Positions 8,706-15,654 of a stretch of 36,262 bases of DNA are shown piece after piece. A model generated the notes under the pieces. The model saw only the letters and a list, made by a program, of their open reading frames with translations. It did no database searches and had not been told where the DNA came from. Numbering within the stretch: the stretch's first letter is position 1; every line of letters starts with the position of its first letter. The DNA is from an uncultured Bacteroidia bacterium. Its GTDB lineage: Bacteria; Bacteroidota; Bacteroidia; Bacteroidales; UBA932. The stretch is taken from NCBI GenBank assembly GCA_902768665.1, contig CACXMA010000019.1:1-36262 (forward strand). The letters are read 5' to 3'. The position numbers were made by a program, and so were the translations under genes.

Positions 8706-9623
8706 TTAACGAGTATTGGTGTTTCTCCATATGATATAATTCTCATTCCGATACGTCTTCCGATGCACATCGGGAGCGAAGAGCGTCTTCTCGCCGGCCT
8801 CGTCAATGAACCAGCCGAAGGAAGAATGGCTGCCGACCAGGTAGATGGCGTTGTCGACACCGAGGTCGACCAGGGCCTGGGCGAAGTCGTGGAAGGACTC
8901 GTCCGTCTCGCTGACGGCAACGAATAGCTGGCCCGCGCGGTCGCAGAGGGCCTTCCGCATTGTCTTGTTTTTGGGCTCGTTTTCGACCAGCCGGCCATTG
9001 TCAACGAGCGGGAACTGGCGGAAGAAGTAGCCGCCCTTCTCCGTGGCTTCTTCGAACAGCGGCGAGTTCTCGGAAACGCCCACAGTCGTCTTTCCCTCGA
9101 TAATGGCGCAGAAGCCCTTCTTGGAGAGCCCCCAGGCGAGCGGCTCGCCTTTCAGCACGAAAGCACCGAGGATCTTCCGGTTGTCCCGACGGATATCGGC
9201 GGCCTGGGCGGCCAGAATGATACTCTTGTCCCTGCGGTCCGGAACGCCAACTGTGAGTTTCGGGGTGGCGTTATGGGGGATATAAAGGCTCAGCTGCACG
9301 TCGTTGATCACCGTGTCGAGCTTTTCCGTGAAGGATTTATCCGTTTCTGTGCCGAACCACTTGCGCTCGGCAGTTTGGACCGGAGCGGGGATGGTGTCGG
9401 GTTCGAACAGGCCGATTTCGGGTTCTTCGGCAGGTTCCTGCGGTTCCTGGCTCCTCGGCCAGAAAATGATGGCCGCTATCCCGATGCAAAGCACCAGCAG
9501 CAGGGAGAGGAGGGCCGCCTGTCTATTTCGGCGCCCCTCTCCGCTGGTCGCGGGGGTCTGTTCCGACGTTCGTCCGATTACGCGGAACTCGTCGTCCCTT
9601 ATATCTTTATTGTTCTCAGCCAT
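8706..9623 (-). CDS. Membrane-anchored protein with NAGPA/DUF2233-like domain
   Basis: A 305-residue protein with a charged cytoplasmic start (residues 1-35), one membrane helix (about 36-55, AALLSLLLVLCIGIAAIIFW), a Pro/Glu-rich linker and a periplasmic domain. From about residue 150 to the end (KGFCAIIEGKTTVGVSENSP, then FRQFPLVDNGRLV, then LVDLGVDNAIYLVGSHSSFG) the strand order resembles the phosphodiester glycosidase (NAGPA, formerly DUF2233) family. The usual glycine-rich Asp-Gly-Gly-Gly-Ser-Ser motif is replaced by LVGSHSSFG, so catalysis is doubtful. It overlaps the LytTR gene by eight bases, implying translational coupling and a shared task, perhaps at the envelope. No enzyme role should be assumed. 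Confidence 0.6.
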   Translation of the reverse strand: MAENNKDIRDDEFRVIGRTSEQTPATSGEGRRNRQAALLSLLLVLCIGIAAIIFWPRSQEPQEPAEEPEIGLFEPDTIPAPVQTAERKWFGTETDKSFTEKLDTVINDVQLSLYIPHNATPKLTVGVPDRRDKSIILAAQAADIRRDNRKILGAFVLKGEPLAWGLSKKGFCAIIEGKTTVGVSENSPLFEEATEKGGYFFRQFPLVDNGRLVENEPKNKTMRKALCDRAGQLFVAVSETDESFHDFAQALVDLGVDNAIYLVGSHSSFGWFIDEAGEKTLFAPDVHRKTYRNENYIIWRNTNTR

Positions 9624-9984
9624 GATTCAAAGTTGCATCGATGTATGCTTTCAGTTTGATAAGGACTTCCCGGGAGGCGGACAGCTCATGGTAGCAGCCG
9701 GCACAGTCCGAAAGGACCAGACGCTGCAGGGACACGTCGACGAGATGGACAAAGTCCGTGTTGACGATAAGTCCGCGGCCCAGGCGGACGAAATTGCCGC
9801 CTTCGTCGCCGAGCTGGTCGGCTAACATGTCTTCTACCTGCCCGAGCTGGAAAGAGACCATCTGGCTACGGTTATCCTGCGTGACGACGTTGGCATAATT
9901 GCCATCCGCCGACACATATACCAGCCGACTGACCGGAACGCGGAGCATCTCAGTGCCCTTGGATATGACCAGGAATCTTTCCAC
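9616..9984 (-). CDS. Stand-alone LytTR-type DNA-binding regulator
   Basis: A protein of up to 122 residues consisting almost only of a LytTR domain: IPVxxLxYxxADGNY-like core (LRVPVSRLVYVSADGNYANV), FVRLGRGLIVNTDFVHLV and a final helix. There is no receiver or membrane domain, so the input may come through the coupled membrane protein that follows. GTG 9984 is only five bases from a -7 box (TATCTTTG, 9997-9990), which would make the mRNA essentially leaderless. ATG 9948 (110 residues) is the alternative but trims the first strand. The upstream mirrored repeat at 10036-10112 has the direct-repeat geometry expected for LytTR sites, so the protein probably controls its own and the divergent operon. 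Confidence 0.75.
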   Translation of the reverse strand: MERFLVISKGTEMLRVPVSRLVYVSADGNYANVVTQDNRSQMVSFQLGQVEDMLADQLGDEGGNFVRLGRGLIVNTDFVHLVDVSLQRLVLSDCAGCYHELSASREVLIKLKAYIDATLNHG

Positions 9985-9989
9985 CTCTG

Positions 9990-9997
9990 CAAAGATA
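9990..9997 (-). promoter_or_regulatory. -7 box of the LytTR gene without a matching -33 box
   Basis: TATCTTTG on the minus strand. No TTTG is found 19-21 bases upstream, consistent with a promoter that needs an activator. The left arm of the mirrored operator begins 39 bases upstream. Confidence 0.5.
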
Positions 9998-10035
9998 CGT
10001 TTTTTTGACGTCCTTTACGCCCCTTTTTTTATCAA

Positions 10036-10112
10036 TGTACGAAATGAAAGAATACTGTACGAACCGGCATGCCTGAAGAGCGTTCATACAGCCCTTTTTC
10101 ATTCCGTACATC
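10036..10112. promoter_or_regulatory. Mirrored LytTR-type operator, 30-base imperfect inverted repeat
   Basis: The left arm 10036-10065 and the right arm 10083-10112 are reverse complements at 24 of 30 positions around a 17-base centre. Each arm contains two direct repeats (TGTACGAA at 10037-10044 and 10057-10064; the opposite arm has TGTACGGA and TGTATGAA) starting 20 bases apart, about two helical turns. Paired direct repeats at this pitch are how LytTR dimers bind DNA. Each arm faces one of two divergent promoters at nearly equal distance (39 and 38 bases to the -7 boxes). Confidence 0.6.
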
Positions 10113-10149
10113 GCCCCTAAAAATCCTTGTCAGAATGCTTTCCATTGCC

Positions 10150-10157
10150 GATTTTTG
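10150..10157 (+). promoter_or_regulatory. Probable -7 box for the WG-lipoprotein–mtgA operon
   Basis: GATTTTTG is one change from TAnnTTTG at a fixed position and lies 38 bases beyond the right operator arm, mirroring the LytTR side. The start codon is 29 bases downstream. Confidence 0.35.
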
Positions 10158-10185: not shown

Positions 10186-11088
10186 ATGAAACACCTTTTT
10201 CCCCTTCTCGCCGTCATGGCGGTTCTCAGTTTTTTCTCCTGCAGCGAAGAGCCCCAGGAGGAACTTCCGGAAGTGGCCGAAGACGGCCTCCTGCTCAATG
10301 ACGACCTGATCGCCGTACGCTCGGCCGACGGTACGGTCTCCATCAAGAACGCGGCGACCGGCAAAGTCACCATCAAGGACATCAAGCTCGACTGGACGCA
10401 GCGCTCCCGCAACGATTCCCTGGCCGTTTTCTGCTCCGATAACAAACGCGGATACTATAATATGTATACGGGCGAGATCGCCATTCCGGCCCAGTATCGA
10501 CGCGCGTGGGTCTTCGAGGAAGGCCTGGCCGCCGTCCAAAAGAATGGAAATATCGGCTTCATCAACCACAAAGGCGAGGTTGTCATAGACTTCAAATATC
10601 CCTACCACGGCAATCCGCTGACGGATTATGTATTCCAGGACGGCCATTGCATCGTTGCCGACACGACGGGCAAGTGCGGTATCATCGACAAGACCGGTCG
10701 CTGGCTGATCGAACCCGAGTACGACTGCGTCAACGCCTATAAGGAATACGCTATTGTAACGAAGGCCGGCGTCACCATGCAGGTGGGCTATGACGGAACG
10801 GTAATGAACTCCTTTGTGCTTGACGCCGTTAAAGAGCTGACATACACCGTCGAAGAACGTTACGTTACAAAGGAGGGTGTTGTCGGTTATGCGGACCGGA
10901 CTGTCAGCACGGGCCTTTTCGCCTACTGCGTAGGTGGCCGCTACGGGCTGATGGACAGCCATTGCCGTCGTATTACCGAACCCCTCTACAAGGGTATCGA
11001 AGCTGTCAACGCCGGCATGTTCAAGGCGACGCTTCTTGACTGGTACTCCGAAGTGATTCTCGATGCCAAAGGCCAGGTTATGCGATAG
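10186..11088 (+). CDS. WG-repeat lipoprotein
   Basis: A 300-residue protein starting MKHLFPLLAVMAVLSFFSCS, a lipoprotein signal with Cys19 as the likely acylated residue. The mature protein has several repeats of the form G-hhxxxGxhhIxxxYDxh (KNGNIGFINHKGEVVIDFKY, then TGKCGIIDKTGRWLIEPEYD, then GGRYGLMDSHCRRITEPLYK), the WG β-repeat. Such proteins are thought to bind ligands or peptidoglycan-associated partners at the envelope, but no precise role is established. ATG 10186 is chosen because the upstream extension would cross the operator and lacks a signal peptide. mtgA starts three bases after its stop, so the two form an operon divergent from the LytTR gene. Confidence 0.8.
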   Translation: MKHLFPLLAVMAVLSFFSCSEEPQEELPEVAEDGLLLNDDLIAVRSADGTVSIKNAATGKVTIKDIKLDWTQRSRNDSLAVFCSDNKRGYYNMYTGEIAIPAQYRRAWVFEEGLAAVQKNGNIGFINHKGEVVIDFKYPYHGNPLTDYVFQDGHCIVADTTGKCGIIDKTGRWLIEPEYDCVNAYKEYAIVTKAGVTMQVGYDGTVMNSFVLDAVKELTYTVEERYVTKEGVVGYADRTVSTGLFAYCVGGRYGLMDSHCRRITEPLYKGIEAVNAGMFKATLLDWYSEVILDAKGQVMR

Positions 11089-11091
11089 CCC

Positions 11092-11754
11092 ATGAAACGC
11101 CGTAAATGGACATACTGGTTCTTCGTACGGATTCCCTCGTGGTATCTGTTACTGAGCGTCGTACTCGTAGTGCTGCTGCGATGGGTTCCGGTGCGATACA
11201 CTCCGGTGATGCTGAAGCGTGCGTTCCAGGCCCGGAATGAGCACTCCTACCATTCCGAGCGGGAATGGGTATCCCTGGAGGACATCTCCCCGGAACTCGT
11301 CAAGGCAGTCATCCGGACGGAGGACCAGCGTTTCTATCAGCACCACGGTTTCGACTGGGACGAGATGGACGCGATGTGGAGCCGCCACAAGAGTGACAAC
11401 GCATCGGTTCGCGGTTGTAGTACAATCTCCCAGCAGGTTGCCAAGAACGTCTTTACCTTCGGCTCGCCCACGCTGGCGCGCAAGGTCTCCGAGGCATACT
11501 GGACCTGCCTGATTGAGTTATTCTGGCCCAAGGACCGCATCATGGAGGTGTACCTCAATGTCGTGGAACTGGGACATGGCCTATACGGAGCCGAGGCCGC
11601 CGCCGAGCGCTATTTCGACTGCCCGGCCCGCTCCCTCGACCGCCGCCAGGCCGTCGCCCTCGCCGTCAGCCTGCCAGATCCCCTGGAGGGCAATCCGCTC
11701 GGGCCGAGTCCGCGCCAGCGCAGACAAAGGACGGCGCTGATGGATTCTTATTGA
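11092..11754 (+). CDS. mtgA: Monofunctional biosynthetic peptidoglycan glycosyltransferase MtgA (GT51)
   Basis: A 220-residue protein with one N-terminal membrane anchor (about residues 14-30, IPSWYLLLSVVLVVLLRW) and a GT51 domain. RTEDQRFYQHHGFD (about 75-88) holds the catalytic Glu, RGCSTISQQVAKN (about 107-119) is the second motif and IMEVYLNVVELG (about 150-161) the third. The family usually has Gly or Ala where Cys stands in RGCST. The enzyme polymerises lipid II into glycan strands on the periplasmic side without a transpeptidase domain. It lies three bases downstream of the WG lipoprotein under the divergent LytTR-type operator, hinting at regulated wall synthesis. It converges with the division cluster. 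Confidence 0.92.
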   Translation: MKRRKWTYWFFVRIPSWYLLLSVVLVVLLRWVPVRYTPVMLKRAFQARNEHSYHSEREWVSLEDISPELVKAVIRTEDQRFYQHHGFDWDEMDAMWSRHKSDNASVRGCSTISQQVAKNVFTFGSPTLARKVSEAYWTCLIELFWPKDRIMEVYLNVVELGHGLYGAEAAAERYFDCPARSLDRRQAVALAVSLPDPLEGNPLGPSPRQRRQRTALMDSY

Positions 11755-12099
11755 TTATTCGATCGCACGGAGTCGCCGTTGGAGTGAAAGCAACATGCCG
11801 ACGGGGCCTTCGGACTGCGCTCCTTCATGTCCGACAACGTCATCTCCGACCTGAAGGGGGACTGATCGGGCATCTGAGGCGTTGAATGGAAGTGATTGAA
11901 TAGCAGGTGATTATCCGATTTGCTGCCCCCTAAAACAGTAGGTAGGCAATAGCTTAATTGGCCATGAATCAATCGTTTCCATTCAACGCCCTGCTTTGGC
12001 TGCGAAGAGCCCTCCTTTGCTACTTGGGACGGCCGAATCTTGTCCTTGAAAAGGGCGGTTTTCAAGGACAGGTCAGCCTTTTTCGGGCTGTCGTCAGGG
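11755..12099. other. Gene-free stretch between mtgA and ftsZ with two inverted repeats
   Basis: No convincing coding frame is seen. Arms 11878-11898 and 11970-11990 are reverse complements at 19 of 21 positions around a 71-base centre. A second hairpin is annotated separately at 12041-12070. The arms could be a decayed insertion-sequence or MITE end pair, or a long hairpin ending both convergent transcripts. No clear T-run follows either. Confidence 0.5.
12041..12070 (-). terminator. Hairpin downstream of ftsZ, probable terminator
   Basis: TGTCCTTGAAAA (12041-12052) pairs perfectly with TTTTCAAGGACA (12059-12070) around GGGCGG. It lies 30 bases past the ftsZ stop on the minus strand. It lacks a T-run outside the stem, so the call rests on position and stem quality. 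Confidence 0.45.
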
Positions 12100-13350
12100 C
12101 TATTTCTTCTCGCGATGGGAGCGGCGGATGGCCGGGATGCCTTCCAGTTCGGAGAGGCTGCGGCCGGGCTCGACGATGAGGAGGGGCTTCTCCTCAAAAC
12201 TGTAGCGGGGCGCGTTCTCCGTGGCGTTGTAGGCGATGCGGGTGGCCGGGGGCGTGTCGGGGAGGGAGATCTCGTCGCCGACTTTCGGGCGCTCATACCG
12301 GTAGGTGCTGGGGATGTGGATGATATTGCCGAGATTGATGTCGGTGATGTCGCCCAGCTTGCCCATGTCGAAGCCGGTCACGATGGCCGTGATCTTGACC
12401 TGGTCGCCGAACTCGGGATCGTCTTCCCAGATGATGCCGCGCTTGAAGTGGTTGGCGTTGCCGGTGTACTTCGAGATCATCTCGTCGATGGACTTGAGCT
12501 CGGTCATCTTGACGCCGTGCTCGTTCATGCCGGTGGTGATGTTCAGGAGGACGTTCTTGGAGGTCTTGAGGTCGAAGTCGTTGAGGAGCGGGGACTCGAA
12601 GGCGCCCTTGACGGCCTGCTCGAGGCGGTCGGCGCCGCGGCCGGTACCCATGCCCATGAGGGCCATGCCGCTGCCGCGCATGAGCTTGCACACGTCCTGG
12701 AAGTCGACATTGATGAATCCGTGCTTGGTGATGACCTCGATGATGCCGCGGACGGCCGTGGAGAGCACCTCGTCGGCCTTCGGGAAGGCTTTCTGGATCA
12801 GCATGTCGCCGAAGAAGTCGTAGAGCTTCTCGTTGTTGATGAGGATGAGCGAGTCGACGTTCTTTTCGAGCTCATGGATGCCGTCGATGGCCTTGGAGTG
12901 GGACTCGATGCCCTCGTTCTTGAACGGGAGCGTGACGACGGCGACGGTGAGGATGCCCTTGTCCTTGGCCATCTTGGCGATGACGGGGGAGGCGCCGGTG
13001 CCGGTACCGCCGCCCATGCCGGCGGTGATGAAGAGCATCTGCGTACCGTTGTCAATCACCTTGGCGGCAATCTCTTCCTGGCTTTCCAGGGCTGCGTTGC
13101 GACCTGCGGCGGGATCGGTACCCGCACCGAGTCCCTGGCTGCCCATCTGGATCTTCGTCGGGACAGGGGAGGCGGCGAGCGCCTGTGAGTCGGTGTTGCA
13201 GACGATGAAACTGCACCCCTCGATCTTCTGCTCATACATATAGTTGACCGCGTTGCAACCGCCGCCGCCGACGCCGATCACCTTGATGAGCGTCCCTTCG
13301 CTCTCCCAGTCGTTCGGCTTGTAGAAATTGTTGATCAGATTGTCTTCCAT
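12100..13350 (-). CDS. ftsZ: Cell division GTPase FtsZ
   Basis: A 416-residue tubulin homologue that polymerises into the Z ring. The N-terminal GTPase domain has GVGGGGCNAV (26-35) and the tubulin signature GGGTGTGASP (113-122). The T7 loop NVDFQDV supplies the catalytic Asp of the next subunit. A short linker ends in LEGIPAIRR, close to the conserved FtsA-binding peptide. ATG 13350 is fixed by alignment to the family start and a GGAGG-like stretch before it. A longer open frame runs upstream but enters ftsA in another phase. Last gene of the dcw cluster, 11 bases after ftsA, with a hairpin downstream. Confidence 0.97.
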   Translation of the reverse strand: MEDNLINNFYKPNDWESEGTLIKVIGVGGGGCNAVNYMYEQKIEGCSFIVCNTDSQALAASPVPTKIQMGSQGLGAGTDPAAGRNAALESQEEIAAKVIDNGTQMLFITAGMGGGTGTGASPVIAKMAKDKGILTVAVVTLPFKNEGIESHSKAIDGIHELEKNVDSLILINNEKLYDFFGDMLIQKAFPKADEVLSTAVRGIIEVITKHGFINVDFQDVCKLMRGSGMALMGMGTGRGADRLEQAVKGAFESPLLNDFDLKTSKNVLLNITTGMNEHGVKMTELKSIDEMISKYTGNANHFKRGIIWEDDPEFGDQVKITAIVTGFDMGKLGDITDINLGNIIHIPSTYRYERPKVGDEISLPDTPPATRIAYNATENAPRYSFEEKPLLIVEPGRSLSELEGIPAIRRSHREKK

Positions 13351-13361
13351 GGCTTTTCCTC

Positions 13362-14855
13362 CTATTTCGTTGCGTCGTCGTAGATTTCTTCGAATGTGTT
13401 GCGGACCTTCTGCCAGAGCACGTTGATGGACTCGGGCGTCTTGATGCTCGGGGCTTTCCAGCGGCGTCTCGGTTTTTTCTCTTTCGGTTTCTCTTTTTTG
13501 ACCGGCTCGCCGAACTCGCTTTCGTCGATGAGCGTGCCCTGCTCGCCATTCTCGAAGTCGCTGTTCCACTCGGTGCCCGATGTCTCTTCGACCGTCTCCG
13601 GGGCCTCATCTTCCGTGGGCTCCACGACCTCGAGGCCGGCGTTGCGGAGAGCCTCCGGGTCGAATTCCGGCAGGTCGACGCAGTCCGGCAGGCGGTCGTT
13701 CTTCGCCGCGAGGATCATGCCCATCGCCGCCGTGGCGCTGGTCTCGTAGATGCCCGAGCAGCCTTCTGCGGAGAACAGATGGCGCGGATAGCCCATCTTG
13801 ACGTTGTAGCCGGAGCGCTCCTTGATGAGGTAGCTCAGGCCGAGCAGGTTGGCCCCGCCGCCGGTGATGACGATGCCGCTGCGCAGGTTCCCCGCGAAGC
13901 CGCTCTTCTGGATGTGCCAGAGGATGGCGTCGACAATCTCGCGGGTGCGCTCGCTGATGATCTCGGCGAGGTAGCTGACGCGCACCTCGATGTCGCTGCG
14001 GTCGTCGTACTGGATCTGGAGGGTCTTCTCGCTGAGGTTCTGGAGCCTTGTGGGCATGCAGGAGCCGAAGCCCTTCTTGATGTTGTCCGCGAGATCCTCC
14101 GAGATGGAGCATTCGGTCTTGATGTCGGAAGTGATCACCTTGCCGCCGAAGGGGATGGCGCCGTAGTAGCGCATGATGTTGCCGTGATAGATGCTGACCG
14201 AGGTCACCCCGCCGCCGAAATCGATGAGGGCGACACCGCTGTCCATCTCCTCGCAGGTGAGCACGGCCTTGGCCACGGCGTCCGGCAGGAAGTACATCCG
14301 GGCGATGGCGATATGGAGCTGGTTGAAGAGAACGTCGATGGTGTTGACCGCGTGCTGGCGGCCGATAAAGACCTTGAAATTGCCTTCCAGGGTGCGGGAA
14401 ACGGTGCCGATGACATCCTGCTCGACGAGCTGGTGGTACTCGGCGGTGGAGAAGGACTGGGCGACGGCGCCGTAGAGCTCGTCCGTGTCCGGATTGCTGA
14501 GCGGATAGGCTTCCAGCGCGAGGCTCTTGAGCGTGTCGATCTCCTCTTCCGTGATGCAGCTGTTGGGCTCGGTGCGGTCGAACTTTCCGGTCGCAATCTC
14601 CTGCGTGACAGGATAGCGCGGCAGGCCGACGCAGACCTGCATGATCTTGATGTTCAGCTCGCGCTCGGCTTCGCGGATGGCGGATTCCAGCTTCTGGCGC
14701 GTCTTGCCCGGATTGAATACCTCGCTGTTGCGGATACCGTCCGAGGGCGTTTCCTTGTAGTAGACGATCTGGATGTCGTCCCCGCTGATCCGTGCGACGG
14801 TCACGGCGAATTTCGAGGAGCCCAGGTCGATGGCGGCAATGTGTTTCTCTTCCAT
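13362..14855 (-). CDS. ftsA: Cell division actin-like protein FtsA
   Basis: A 497-residue actin-fold ATPase that links FtsZ filaments to the inner membrane. Visible motifs are the phosphate-1 loop IDLGSSKF (9-16), the SHS2-like insertion (about 85-165), phosphate-2 LIDFGGGVTSVSIY and the adenosine motif IVITGGGANLLGL. After the actin core the protein has a long acidic then basic tail (about 395-497, with KKEKPKEKKPRRRWK), longer than in E. coli FtsA (420), probably a spacer before the membrane-binding C-terminal helix (WQKVRNTFEEIY). It lies seven bases after ftsQ. Confidence 0.95.
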   Translation of the reverse strand: MEEKHIAAIDLGSSKFAVTVARISGDDIQIVYYKETPSDGIRNSEVFNPGKTRQKLESAIREAERELNIKIMQVCVGLPRYPVTQEIATGKFDRTEPNSCITEEEIDTLKSLALEAYPLSNPDTDELYGAVAQSFSTAEYHQLVEQDVIGTVSRTLEGNFKVFIGRQHAVNTIDVLFNQLHIAIARMYFLPDAVAKAVLTCEEMDSGVALIDFGGGVTSVSIYHGNIMRYYGAIPFGGKVITSDIKTECSISEDLADNIKKGFGSCMPTRLQNLSEKTLQIQYDDRSDIEVRVSYLAEIISERTREIVDAILWHIQKSGFAGNLRSGIVITGGGANLLGLSYLIKERSGYNVKMGYPRHLFSAEGCSGIYETSATAAMGMILAAKNDRLPDCVDLPEFDPEALRNAGLEVVEPTEDEAPETVEETSGTEWNSDFENGEQGTLIDESEFGEPVKKEKPKEKKPRRRWKAPSIKTPESINVLWQKVRNTFEEIYDDATK

Positions 14856-14862
14856 ATCTCTT

Positions 14863-15654
14863 CTATTTGTTTCGGCAGATGATCTGGCCTTTATATTTTA
14901 CGTTCACACTCTTGTAGGCGGCCCCTTCCGGCAGCTGCGGAAGGACCTTGCGGAAGTACTGGTCCATGCGGGCGAGCTTGGCGCCGGCGTTCTCCGGCTG
15001 GCCGAAAAGGAAACGCTCGGGACGATCGCGAAGGATCAGCGTCAGCTCCCCGCTGCCTTCCTCGACATGGATCTGGGCGATGTTGCCGGACCAGGTCGGG
15101 GAGCGGCGGATCGTGGCGACAAGACCCAGCATCCGCTGGAGCCACTCCTTGCCGGGGCCGTCCTCCGGGAAACCGGAGAAGCCGGCGGCGGGCATGTAGC
15201 CCAGGGCGCCGTCCACCGTCTGGACACGGATGGCGTTCGCGTTCAGCGGCAGGATATAGCCTTCGGCATCGCAGTAATAGCCTCCCTGCGGACCCTGGAA
15301 ACGGACCACGGGAATGCGCTGGTCGATGCTGGCATGGAGCTGGCCGTCCGGGGTTTTCCATACCTCGCTGCGGAGAATACCCACGCCGCGGTTGAGCCGG
15401 TGCTCGATGTCCGCGAGGTCGAGGCTGTCGAGAGCCTTCCCTTCTACGGTCCCGATCTCTTCCGCCAGATAAGCCCGCACGTCCGCAGCGGTCACGAAGC
15501 GGTGCTCGCTCGAATCGCGCACTTCCACGTTGAAGCCCGTGCAGCGGCTGCCCCTGCGCTCGGCGCGGCCGAGAAGGAGGACAAAGCCGAAGACGAGGGT
15601 CATCAGCGCGAGGCCCGTGAGGGCAAGGATCGTTTTCCGTGTAGGCTTTTCCAT
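14863..15654 (-). CDS. ftsQ: Cell division protein FtsQ/DivIB
   Basis: A 263-residue bitopic protein: short cytoplasmic start, membrane helix (about 9-28, ILALTGLALMTLVFGFVLLL), POTRA domain (about 38-105, FNVEVRDSS…LNRGVGILRSEVWKT) and β domain (about 106-255, IDQRIPVVRFQG, YYCDAEGYILPL). FtsQ connects early divisome proteins with FtsL and FtsI/FtsW in the periplasm. Sequence conservation in this family is low, so the call leans on position between murC and ftsA as well as on the fold pattern. Spaced three bases after murC and seven before ftsA. Confidence 0.88.
   Translation of the reverse strand: MEKPTRKTILALTGLALMTLVFGFVLLLGRAERRGSRCTGFNVEVRDSSEHRFVTAADVRAYLAEEIGTVEGKALDSLDLADIEHRLNRGVGILRSEVWKTPDGQLHASIDQRIPVVRFQGPQGGYYCDAEGYILPLNANAIRVQTVDGALGYMPAAGFSGFPEDGPGKEWLQRMLGLVATIRRSPTWSGNIAQIHVEEGSGELTLILRDRPERFLFGQPENAGAKLARMDQYFRKVLPQLPEGAAYKSVNVKYKGQIICRNK

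Follow-up and report, generated by a model that had tools for sequence, protein, structure and literature searches.

In LytTR Regulatory Systems (LRS), such as HdrRM and BrsRM of Streptococcus mutans, a LytTR regulator is paired with an inhibitory membrane protein, and repeats serve autoregulation (PMC6193735). Their 9-bp repeats lie 11-13 bp apart and about 10 bp upstream of the -35 of the operon (PMC6193735). The membrane proteins usually have three or four transmembrane (TM) helices and no periplasmic domain (PMC13384398), and LRS-like operons of Bacteroides encode an NfeD/DUF2154 membrane protein upstream and a membrane-spanning LytTR protein (PMC6193735). A different arrangement is found in S. 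aureus, where the divergent promoters P2 and P3 are both activated by AgrA, whose direct-repeat sites are centred near -60 (PMC4227749).

We analysed a window of 36,262 nucleotides from an uncultured Bacteroidales bacterium; it spans the entire contig C19 of an 88% complete, 2.03 Mb assembly. In this window, a leftward gene pair encoding a LytTR protein and a NAGPA-like membrane protein and a rightward pair encoding a WG-repeat lipoprotein and MtgA flank an inverted repeat. As in the LRS, a gene for a small LytTR regulator lies directly upstream of its membrane protein gene (with an 8-base overlap in the window), direct repeats with a period of 20-22 stand just upstream of the promoter of this operon, and positive feedback is predicted. 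As in agr P2/P3, a repeat pair lies upstream of each divergent promoter, one of which drives the regulator's operon, and the proximal repeat is centred near -60. Unlike the LRS membrane proteins, the partner in this module is predicted to have one TM helix, and it carries a NAGPA-like domain together with a conserved DDE tail; the mirrored four-site array would also serve a divergent, exchangeable operon, the half-site is TGTAYGAAAT, and the promoters have Bacteroidales -7 boxes. The period fits that of the LRS repeats, but the sites lie mostly 38-40 bp from the -7 box and there is no conserved -33 from which to measure. The gene arrangement also differs from that reported for the LRS-like operons of Bacteroides, with their upstream NfeD/DUF2154 protein and membrane-spanning LytTR. 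In contrast to agr as described, the regulator lacks a receiver domain, no kinase or peptide was seen adjacent, the gap between pairs is fixed at 14-15 bp where agr has SarA sites between the AgrA repeats, and the divergent product is a protein operon that varies between species.

Judged from its sequence, the module is a variant of the LRS with an agr P2/P3-like control region; formally it falls in neither group on all features, because the predicted topology of the partner differs and the regulator has no receiver domain. We recognised no description of such a system in a record-level search of the literature on LytTR in Bacteroidetes, LRS, LytTR divergent promoters, NAGPA in Bacteroides and CreD. 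The array is conserved among these uncultured gut Bacteroidales, and it is very probably the operator by which one LytTR protein turns on its own genes and a neighbouring envelope operon of varying content. More specifically, we consider it likely that the two operons of a one-regulator envelope-signalling module share the array as their control region, with LytTR, presumably as dimers, activating both and the tailed membrane protein inhibiting LytTR.

A mirrored array of four half-sites between two divergent operons

The features of the locus are listed below in window coordinates. Identities are mean pairwise values over 19 non-redundant arrays; this set omits L056 and L057 as near-copies of L054.

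8706..9623, minus strand: membrane partner, 305 aa, overlapping the LytTR gene by 8 bases (PF09992, 23.8 bits, cut-off 25)
9616..9984, minus strand: stand-alone LytTR regulator, 122 aa, GTG start (PF04397, 27.6 bits against a cut-off of 22.6)
9990..9997, minus strand: putative -7 box of the LytTR operon, TATCTTTG, 38 bases from R1; conserved -33 absent
10036..10045, plus strand: R1, half-site TGTACGAAAT, outer site of the strong pair facing the LytTR promoter; identity 0.94
10056..10065, plus strand: R2, half-site TGTACGAACC, inner site of the strong pair, period 20; identity 0.85
10066..10080, no strand: inner gap of 15 bases, sequence free (identity 0.27); length 15 in 16 and 14 in 3 of 19 arrays
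10081..10090, minus strand: R3, half-site (CGTTCATACA on the plus strand), inner site of the weaker pair facing WG-mtgA; identity 0.69
10101..10110, minus strand: R4, half-site (ATTCCGTACA on the plus strand), outer site of the weaker pair; identity 0.72
10120..10129, plus strand: -33-like element of the putative WG-mtgA promoter, conserved AAAATCCTTG; A at 11, 12 and 13 in 17, 19 and 18 of 19 arrays, T at 17 and 18 in 17 and 19 of 19
10150..10157, plus strand: putative -7 box of the WG-mtgA promoter, GATTTTTG, 39 bases from R4
10186..11088, plus strand: WG-repeat lipoprotein, first gene of the divergent cargo operon (PF14903, 4.4e-19; lipoprotein signal by eye)
11092..11754, plus strand: mtgA, monofunctional peptidoglycan glycosyltransferase, second cargo gene (TIGR02070, 212.1 bits against a cut-off of 182.65)

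The inverted repeat (10035-10064 and 10082-10111) has 30-nt arms that match at 24 of 30 positions (80%), with 17 nt between them. First-order Markov resampling of 9990-10157 produced such an arm pair in 0 of 1000 sequences (maximum 22). Across the window, 24 matching arm bases were reached in 1 tile out of 430. The direct repeat TGTACGAA occurs at 10036 and 10056, a period of 20 that R3 and R4 share. The array consists of four half-sites TGTAYGAAAT: the strong pair is oriented towards LytTR, and the weaker pair, which is inverted, towards the divergent operon. A sequence-only reading of this DNA had described a mirrored repeat made of two direct-repeat pairs spaced 20 bases and nearly equidistant from two -7 boxes, and these measurements bear out that description. 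In the window's own genome the exact pair motif was found at this locus alone, so no second target is predicted there.

The WG and mtgA genes are 3 bases apart. Within 11092-15654, mtgA is convergent to a likely ftsZ-ftsA-ftsQ division cluster (12100-15654, minus strand; by eye).

The array is conserved with a nearly constant geometry

The genus of the window's genome comprises at least 400 species, and its named relatives include assemblies from yak omasum, goat omasum and red deer. At E <=1e-3, 41 of the 300 genus genomes searched gave a match to the LytTR protein, in many cases a distant one; nine named LytTR loci were 59-81% identical and a tenth was distant. In a first set of 26 loci, with periods of 20-21 imposed (an earlier pass had allowed 19-22), the LytTR-facing TGTAYGAAAT pair was present in 25, the exception (L063) being a 35-residue LytTR match, and 21 had the full array with a period of 20-21 and an inner gap of 14-15.

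A final geometry pass with the same imposed periods covered 32 loci. Besides the window it took in 24 from the first set, two that the array pattern had revealed and five from other families. Left out were L034 and L063 (LytTR matches of 35-38 residues, without repeats), the distant L046 and L005-L007, and the distant stand-alone LytTR loci L024-L033, L035 and L036; L042 and L044 represented L011 and L018. A LytTR-facing pair scoring at least 17 of 20 was found in 31 of the 32 loci, with the LytTR -7 box 38-40 bp from its pair in 28. An opposite-facing pair scored at least 14 in 27 loci (the remaining five scored 9-12), and in 24 of these 27 the cargo -7 box lay 38-40 bp from it. The cargo-facing pair scored below the LytTR-facing pair in 26 of 27 loci, a score that favours the left pair because its consensus was taken from R1 and R2; the identities over 19 arrays are free of this bias.

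The LytTR -7 box of L040 and L041 is at 29, 10 bp closer, and L182, from another family, has an inner gap of 24, differing by 9-10 bp; both shifts are close to one helical turn. At L059, CATATTTG (one mismatch) would be the -7 box at about 40 (by eye). The right -7 box is degenerate in L037, and in L061 and L062 the divergent gene is present but a right -7 box was absent at the expected place. L186 had no repeats and no divergent gene nearby. Absence of the repeat from relatives had been named beforehand as grounds for rejecting the operator proposal; when looked for, the array was found in many relatives and, in full, in two further families. We suggest that LytTR binds each TGTAYGAAAT direct-repeat pair, whose period of 20-21 equals two helical turns, presumably as a dimer.

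Strong pairs can stand alone

Two LytTR operators might merely stand back to back and act independently, with the constant gap reflecting shared ancestry or compactness and the pairs making no contact. This explanation, which we judge unlikely but worth weighing carefully, draws on the strong pair occurring alone at L052, L059, L184 and L185 and before a TPR-type lipoprotein in G230, from which it follows that a pair can stand alone. At L052, L059 and L184 no rightward frame of at least 70 aa was listed within 1 kb; L185 has a rightward frame at 384 and lacks the mirrored half, and says nothing either way on cooperativity. The agr P2/P3 region, with direct repeats upstream of each divergent promoter, is also in keeping with independent operators (PMC4227749). 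Against independence, the sequence of the gap is randomised (27% identity), yet its length is held at 14-15 in all 19 non-redundant arrays, and the sole deviating gap, that of L182, is off by 9-10 bp. In addition, two loci keep the distal strong pair with no TAnnTTTG within 60 bp on its side. In G178:C3 the full array follows the 3' end of the NAGPA-like gene and precedes a lipoprotein operon of the same orientation, and in G320:C80 it lies about 0.4 kb before a zinc-ribbon/FHA-type gene, right after the end of a same-direction gene. Both have a perfect R1, gaps of 15 and 14, respectively, and a cargo -7 box at 39-40 bp; TAnnTTTG was looked for within 60 bp on the far side and none was found.

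We read the strong pair as probably sufficient at its own promoter and the weak pair as one that is accompanied by a strong one. Cooperative loading is proposed because the two one-directional promoters retain all four sites while LytTR-only promoters keep the strong pair; this suggests cooperative binding across the array from two cases that could be relics of rearrangement. Under the shared control region that we favour, protein on the strong pair would help to load the weak pair over the fixed 14-15 bp gap, as this gap and the four sites kept at the two one-directional promoters suggest. Inner-gap changes of 5 bp versus 10 bp would provide a sharp test of LytTR cooperativity.

Three extra LytTR targets are predicted from these sites: the zinc-ribbon/FHA-type gene of G320:C80, the lipoprotein operon of G178:C3 and the TPR-type lipoprotein of G230:C1. 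At the last of these (L149 7502-7529, G230:C1:59501), a single pair 39 bp from the near -7 box CAAAAATG precedes a 541-aa TPR-like lipoprotein about 5 kb from LytTR. Another single repeat pair lies between a NUDIX-like gene and a rightward gene (L147 4771-4799, G141:C204). Further pair motifs, in G141:C28, G253 and G204, fall within coding frames and have the look of chance occurrences.

The two promoters differ

The LytTR side of the array has TAnnTTTG, but no column of at least 0.7 bits was found 3-32 bp from R1 in 17 arrays (L040 and L041 were left out of these columns). In contrast, the cargo side shows three conserved stretches past the array in 19 arrays, namely an A-run (10-13), then C-T-T-G (16-19) and further out GAnnTTTG (40-47), and TTG begins 17 or 18 bases past R4 in 23 of the 27 loci having the cargo-facing pair. 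In the window, the CTTG of the -33-like element lies 20 bases upstream of the -7 box. The -7 box is full on the LytTR side and imperfect on the cargo side. The earlier proposal that both promoters lack -33 boxes stands for the LytTR side and fails for the divergent side, where CTTG is conserved.

We propose that LytTR on the strong pair activates its own operon, which encodes LytTR and the tailed membrane protein; the promoter used has a good -7 box but lacks a -33, and the result would be positive feedback. On the weaker inverted pair, LytTR would activate the divergent cargo (WG lipoprotein-mtgA in the window), whose promoter has a -33 but an imperfect -7 box. The opposite arrangement, in which the array is a repression or looping operator and LytTR occupancy shuts the divergent promoters, is improbable. 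In its favour, the array does sit between two promoters, and bsaA is an AgrA-repressed target with its site downstream of the promoter (PMC4227749). Against it, the sites here are upstream of both core promoters and the LytTR-side promoter has no conserved -33. The spacing also resembles that of activators, with the AgrA proximal repeat centred at about -60 and the repeats of the LRS some 10 bp before -35.

In the window, 5 bases separate the -7 box of LytTR from its GTG start (9984-9997), so its mRNA would be leaderless or nearly so. At L037, 18 bases separate the -7 box and the ATG of LytTR.

The array accompanies the LytTR gene

We compared the best-matching 17 of the 41 LytTR-matching genomes with 17 genus genomes that had no match. 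The pair motif was present in 17 of 17 LytTR-positive versus 2 of 17 LytTR-negative genomes (2 of 34 for a reversed control), and the hits in the two LytTR-negative genomes fall within coding frames. A three-site pattern (R1, R2 and R3, period 20) occurred once each in 15 of 400 genomes and in none with the reversed control. This pattern is blind to period-21 arrays; the period-21 form, searched in 350 genomes, was found in seven, all LytTR-positive, against a control of 0. Two new loci came from the three-site pattern, G381 and G386: LytTR adjoins the array in both, and WG-mtgA is present in one. The comparison between genomes supports the link between array and LytTR that the sequence-only reading had drawn, as does the distance of 38-40 bp between most pairs and their own promoter.

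That a factor other than the adjacent LytTR binds the array is very improbable: repeats of this size would suit other dimeric regulators, but the array tracks the LytTR gene through cargo changes, and its period of 20-21 and placement are like those of LytTR sites. An RNA element (a long hairpin or attenuator) in place of a DNA operator is scarcely credible, since the array is upstream of both -7 boxes and the variable Y positions show no covariation (agreement within species in 10 and 11 of 19 arrays versus 9.6 and 8.7 expected across species), and an Rfam search of the window gave no match at the gathering threshold, even though the 30-nt inverted repeat could form a stem if transcribed and spacer pairing is slightly better within than between species (0.39 versus 0.29).

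If LytTR is the factor that reads the array, the rule that TGTAYGAAAT pairs stand 38-40 bp from TAnnTTTG is an operator code open to testing. It applies to a family of regulators in uncultured Bacteroidales, whose regulon would become readable from genomes.

The divergent operon varies between close relatives

Behind the weak pair, 13 of the 32 loci of the LytTR tree have WG-mtgA and four have an FHA/Ser-Thr-kinase/zinc-ribbon operon; two kinds of lipoprotein occur twice each, six other cargos occur singly, and five loci have none. Cargo labels, assigned by hand, require 14 changes on the tree, in which 8 of 28 inner branches are well supported, with a minimum possible of 10; shuffled labels gave a mean of 18.2 and were as low in 0 of 200 shuffles. 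Cargo is more clustered on the tree than shuffled labels, and it also differs among near neighbours in supported groups (L039 versus L040 and L041; L050 versus L051, L054, L056 and L057; L042 versus L043) and, in a group with weaker support, between the window and L037. Different operons (WG-mtgA, FHA/kinase, lipoproteins and, in a sister branch, creD) stand behind one conserved control element.

Close WG homologues (at least 61% identical) were found in 6 of 300 genus genomes, with LytTR alongside in all six, and weaker homologues (38-54%) in five further genomes. TIGR02070 was above cut-off in 68 of the 300. Besides this mtgA, the window's genome (88% complete) shows a Transgly domain in one frame of 827 aa. 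From the sequence alone, the locus had been taken as a possible switch for extra glycan-strand synthesis. This view survives for the WG-mtgA lineages, to which it is confined because cargo varies between close relatives; elsewhere the same operator has other cargos. The word "extra" does not fit what is visible in the window's genome, since mtgA is the only stand-alone glycosyltransferase found there, beside one Transgly domain.

The LytTR protein and its membrane partner

The regulator has a LytTR domain alone in 122 aa, with PF04397 over its cut-off, and was modelled with a pLDDT of 90.4. Foldseek matched the model to AgrA (3bs1, 4xqn), ComE (4cbv) and 3d6w in the PDB, with E of 4e-6 to 3e-4; the modelled fold resembles DNA-bound AgrA. 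A PDB sequence search with the LytTR and partner alignments gave no match up to E 10, and a domain scan of six neighbouring proteins found no kinase.

The partner has an N-terminal tail (IRDDEFRVIG), one predicted long helix (30-53) that we take as the TM helix, and a NAGPA-like domain. Its structure model, with a pLDDT of just 62, matches NAGPA (6pky) and BACOVA_00430 (3ohg). LytTR lies upstream of a NAGPA-like gene at 27 of 32 loci. No such partner was found at L050, L051, L054, L056 and L057, so the partner is not indispensable. The tail motif D-[DNS]-[DE]-hydrophobic is present in all 27 NAGPA-like partners (26 by script, L062 by eye), and the tail is presumably cytosolic. The Asp of Y-[LAC]-D-M-G-S-W-S, presumably catalytic, is kept in four of four relatives with no LytTR match in the fetched stretch (L177, L179, L180 and L181), and its position is V or T in 10 of 10 aligned LytTR-linked NAGPA-like proteins. 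Replacement of this residue would fit a sensor rather than an enzyme. The membrane protein most likely keeps LytTR inactive through its conserved tail until the periplasmic NAGPA-like domain senses an envelope signal, an inhibition that we propose by likeness to the membrane inhibitors of the LRS.

Related branches

In a sister branch (L065, L066, L067, L068, L069 and L071), LytTR is about 30% identical, and the NAGPA-like partner has the same tail motif. The divergent gene is CreD-type (PF06123 in L068, the one tested; starts are similar in the others). In 6 of 8 sister-branch loci, a one-sided pair, TTCRTAAA with a period of 21, lies 39-40 bp from the -7 box, and clear LytTR-facing repeats were not seen.

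A broader interpretation, which we offer tentatively and rate somewhat short of an even chance, is that these loci represent a new class of Bacteroidales envelope sensor. A single-pass protein would hold LytTR by its DDE tail, the NAGPA-like domain of this protein having turned into a ligand sensor, and the four sites would form a portable cassette in which the strong distal pair cooperatively loads the weak promoter-proximal pair over a fixed 15-bp gap, as a LytTR tetramer. Operons landing behind the weak pair would become later-firing targets, and the related one-sided branch, with its 39-bp geometry, would run creD.

At three loci with a distant stand-alone LytTR (L072, L073 and L076), the regulator gene is followed by one for a protein of 231-241 aa, FHA-like by eye, in place of the NAGPA-like gene. 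FHA/kinase genes are also cargo of the mirrored array, in L051, L054, L056 and L057.
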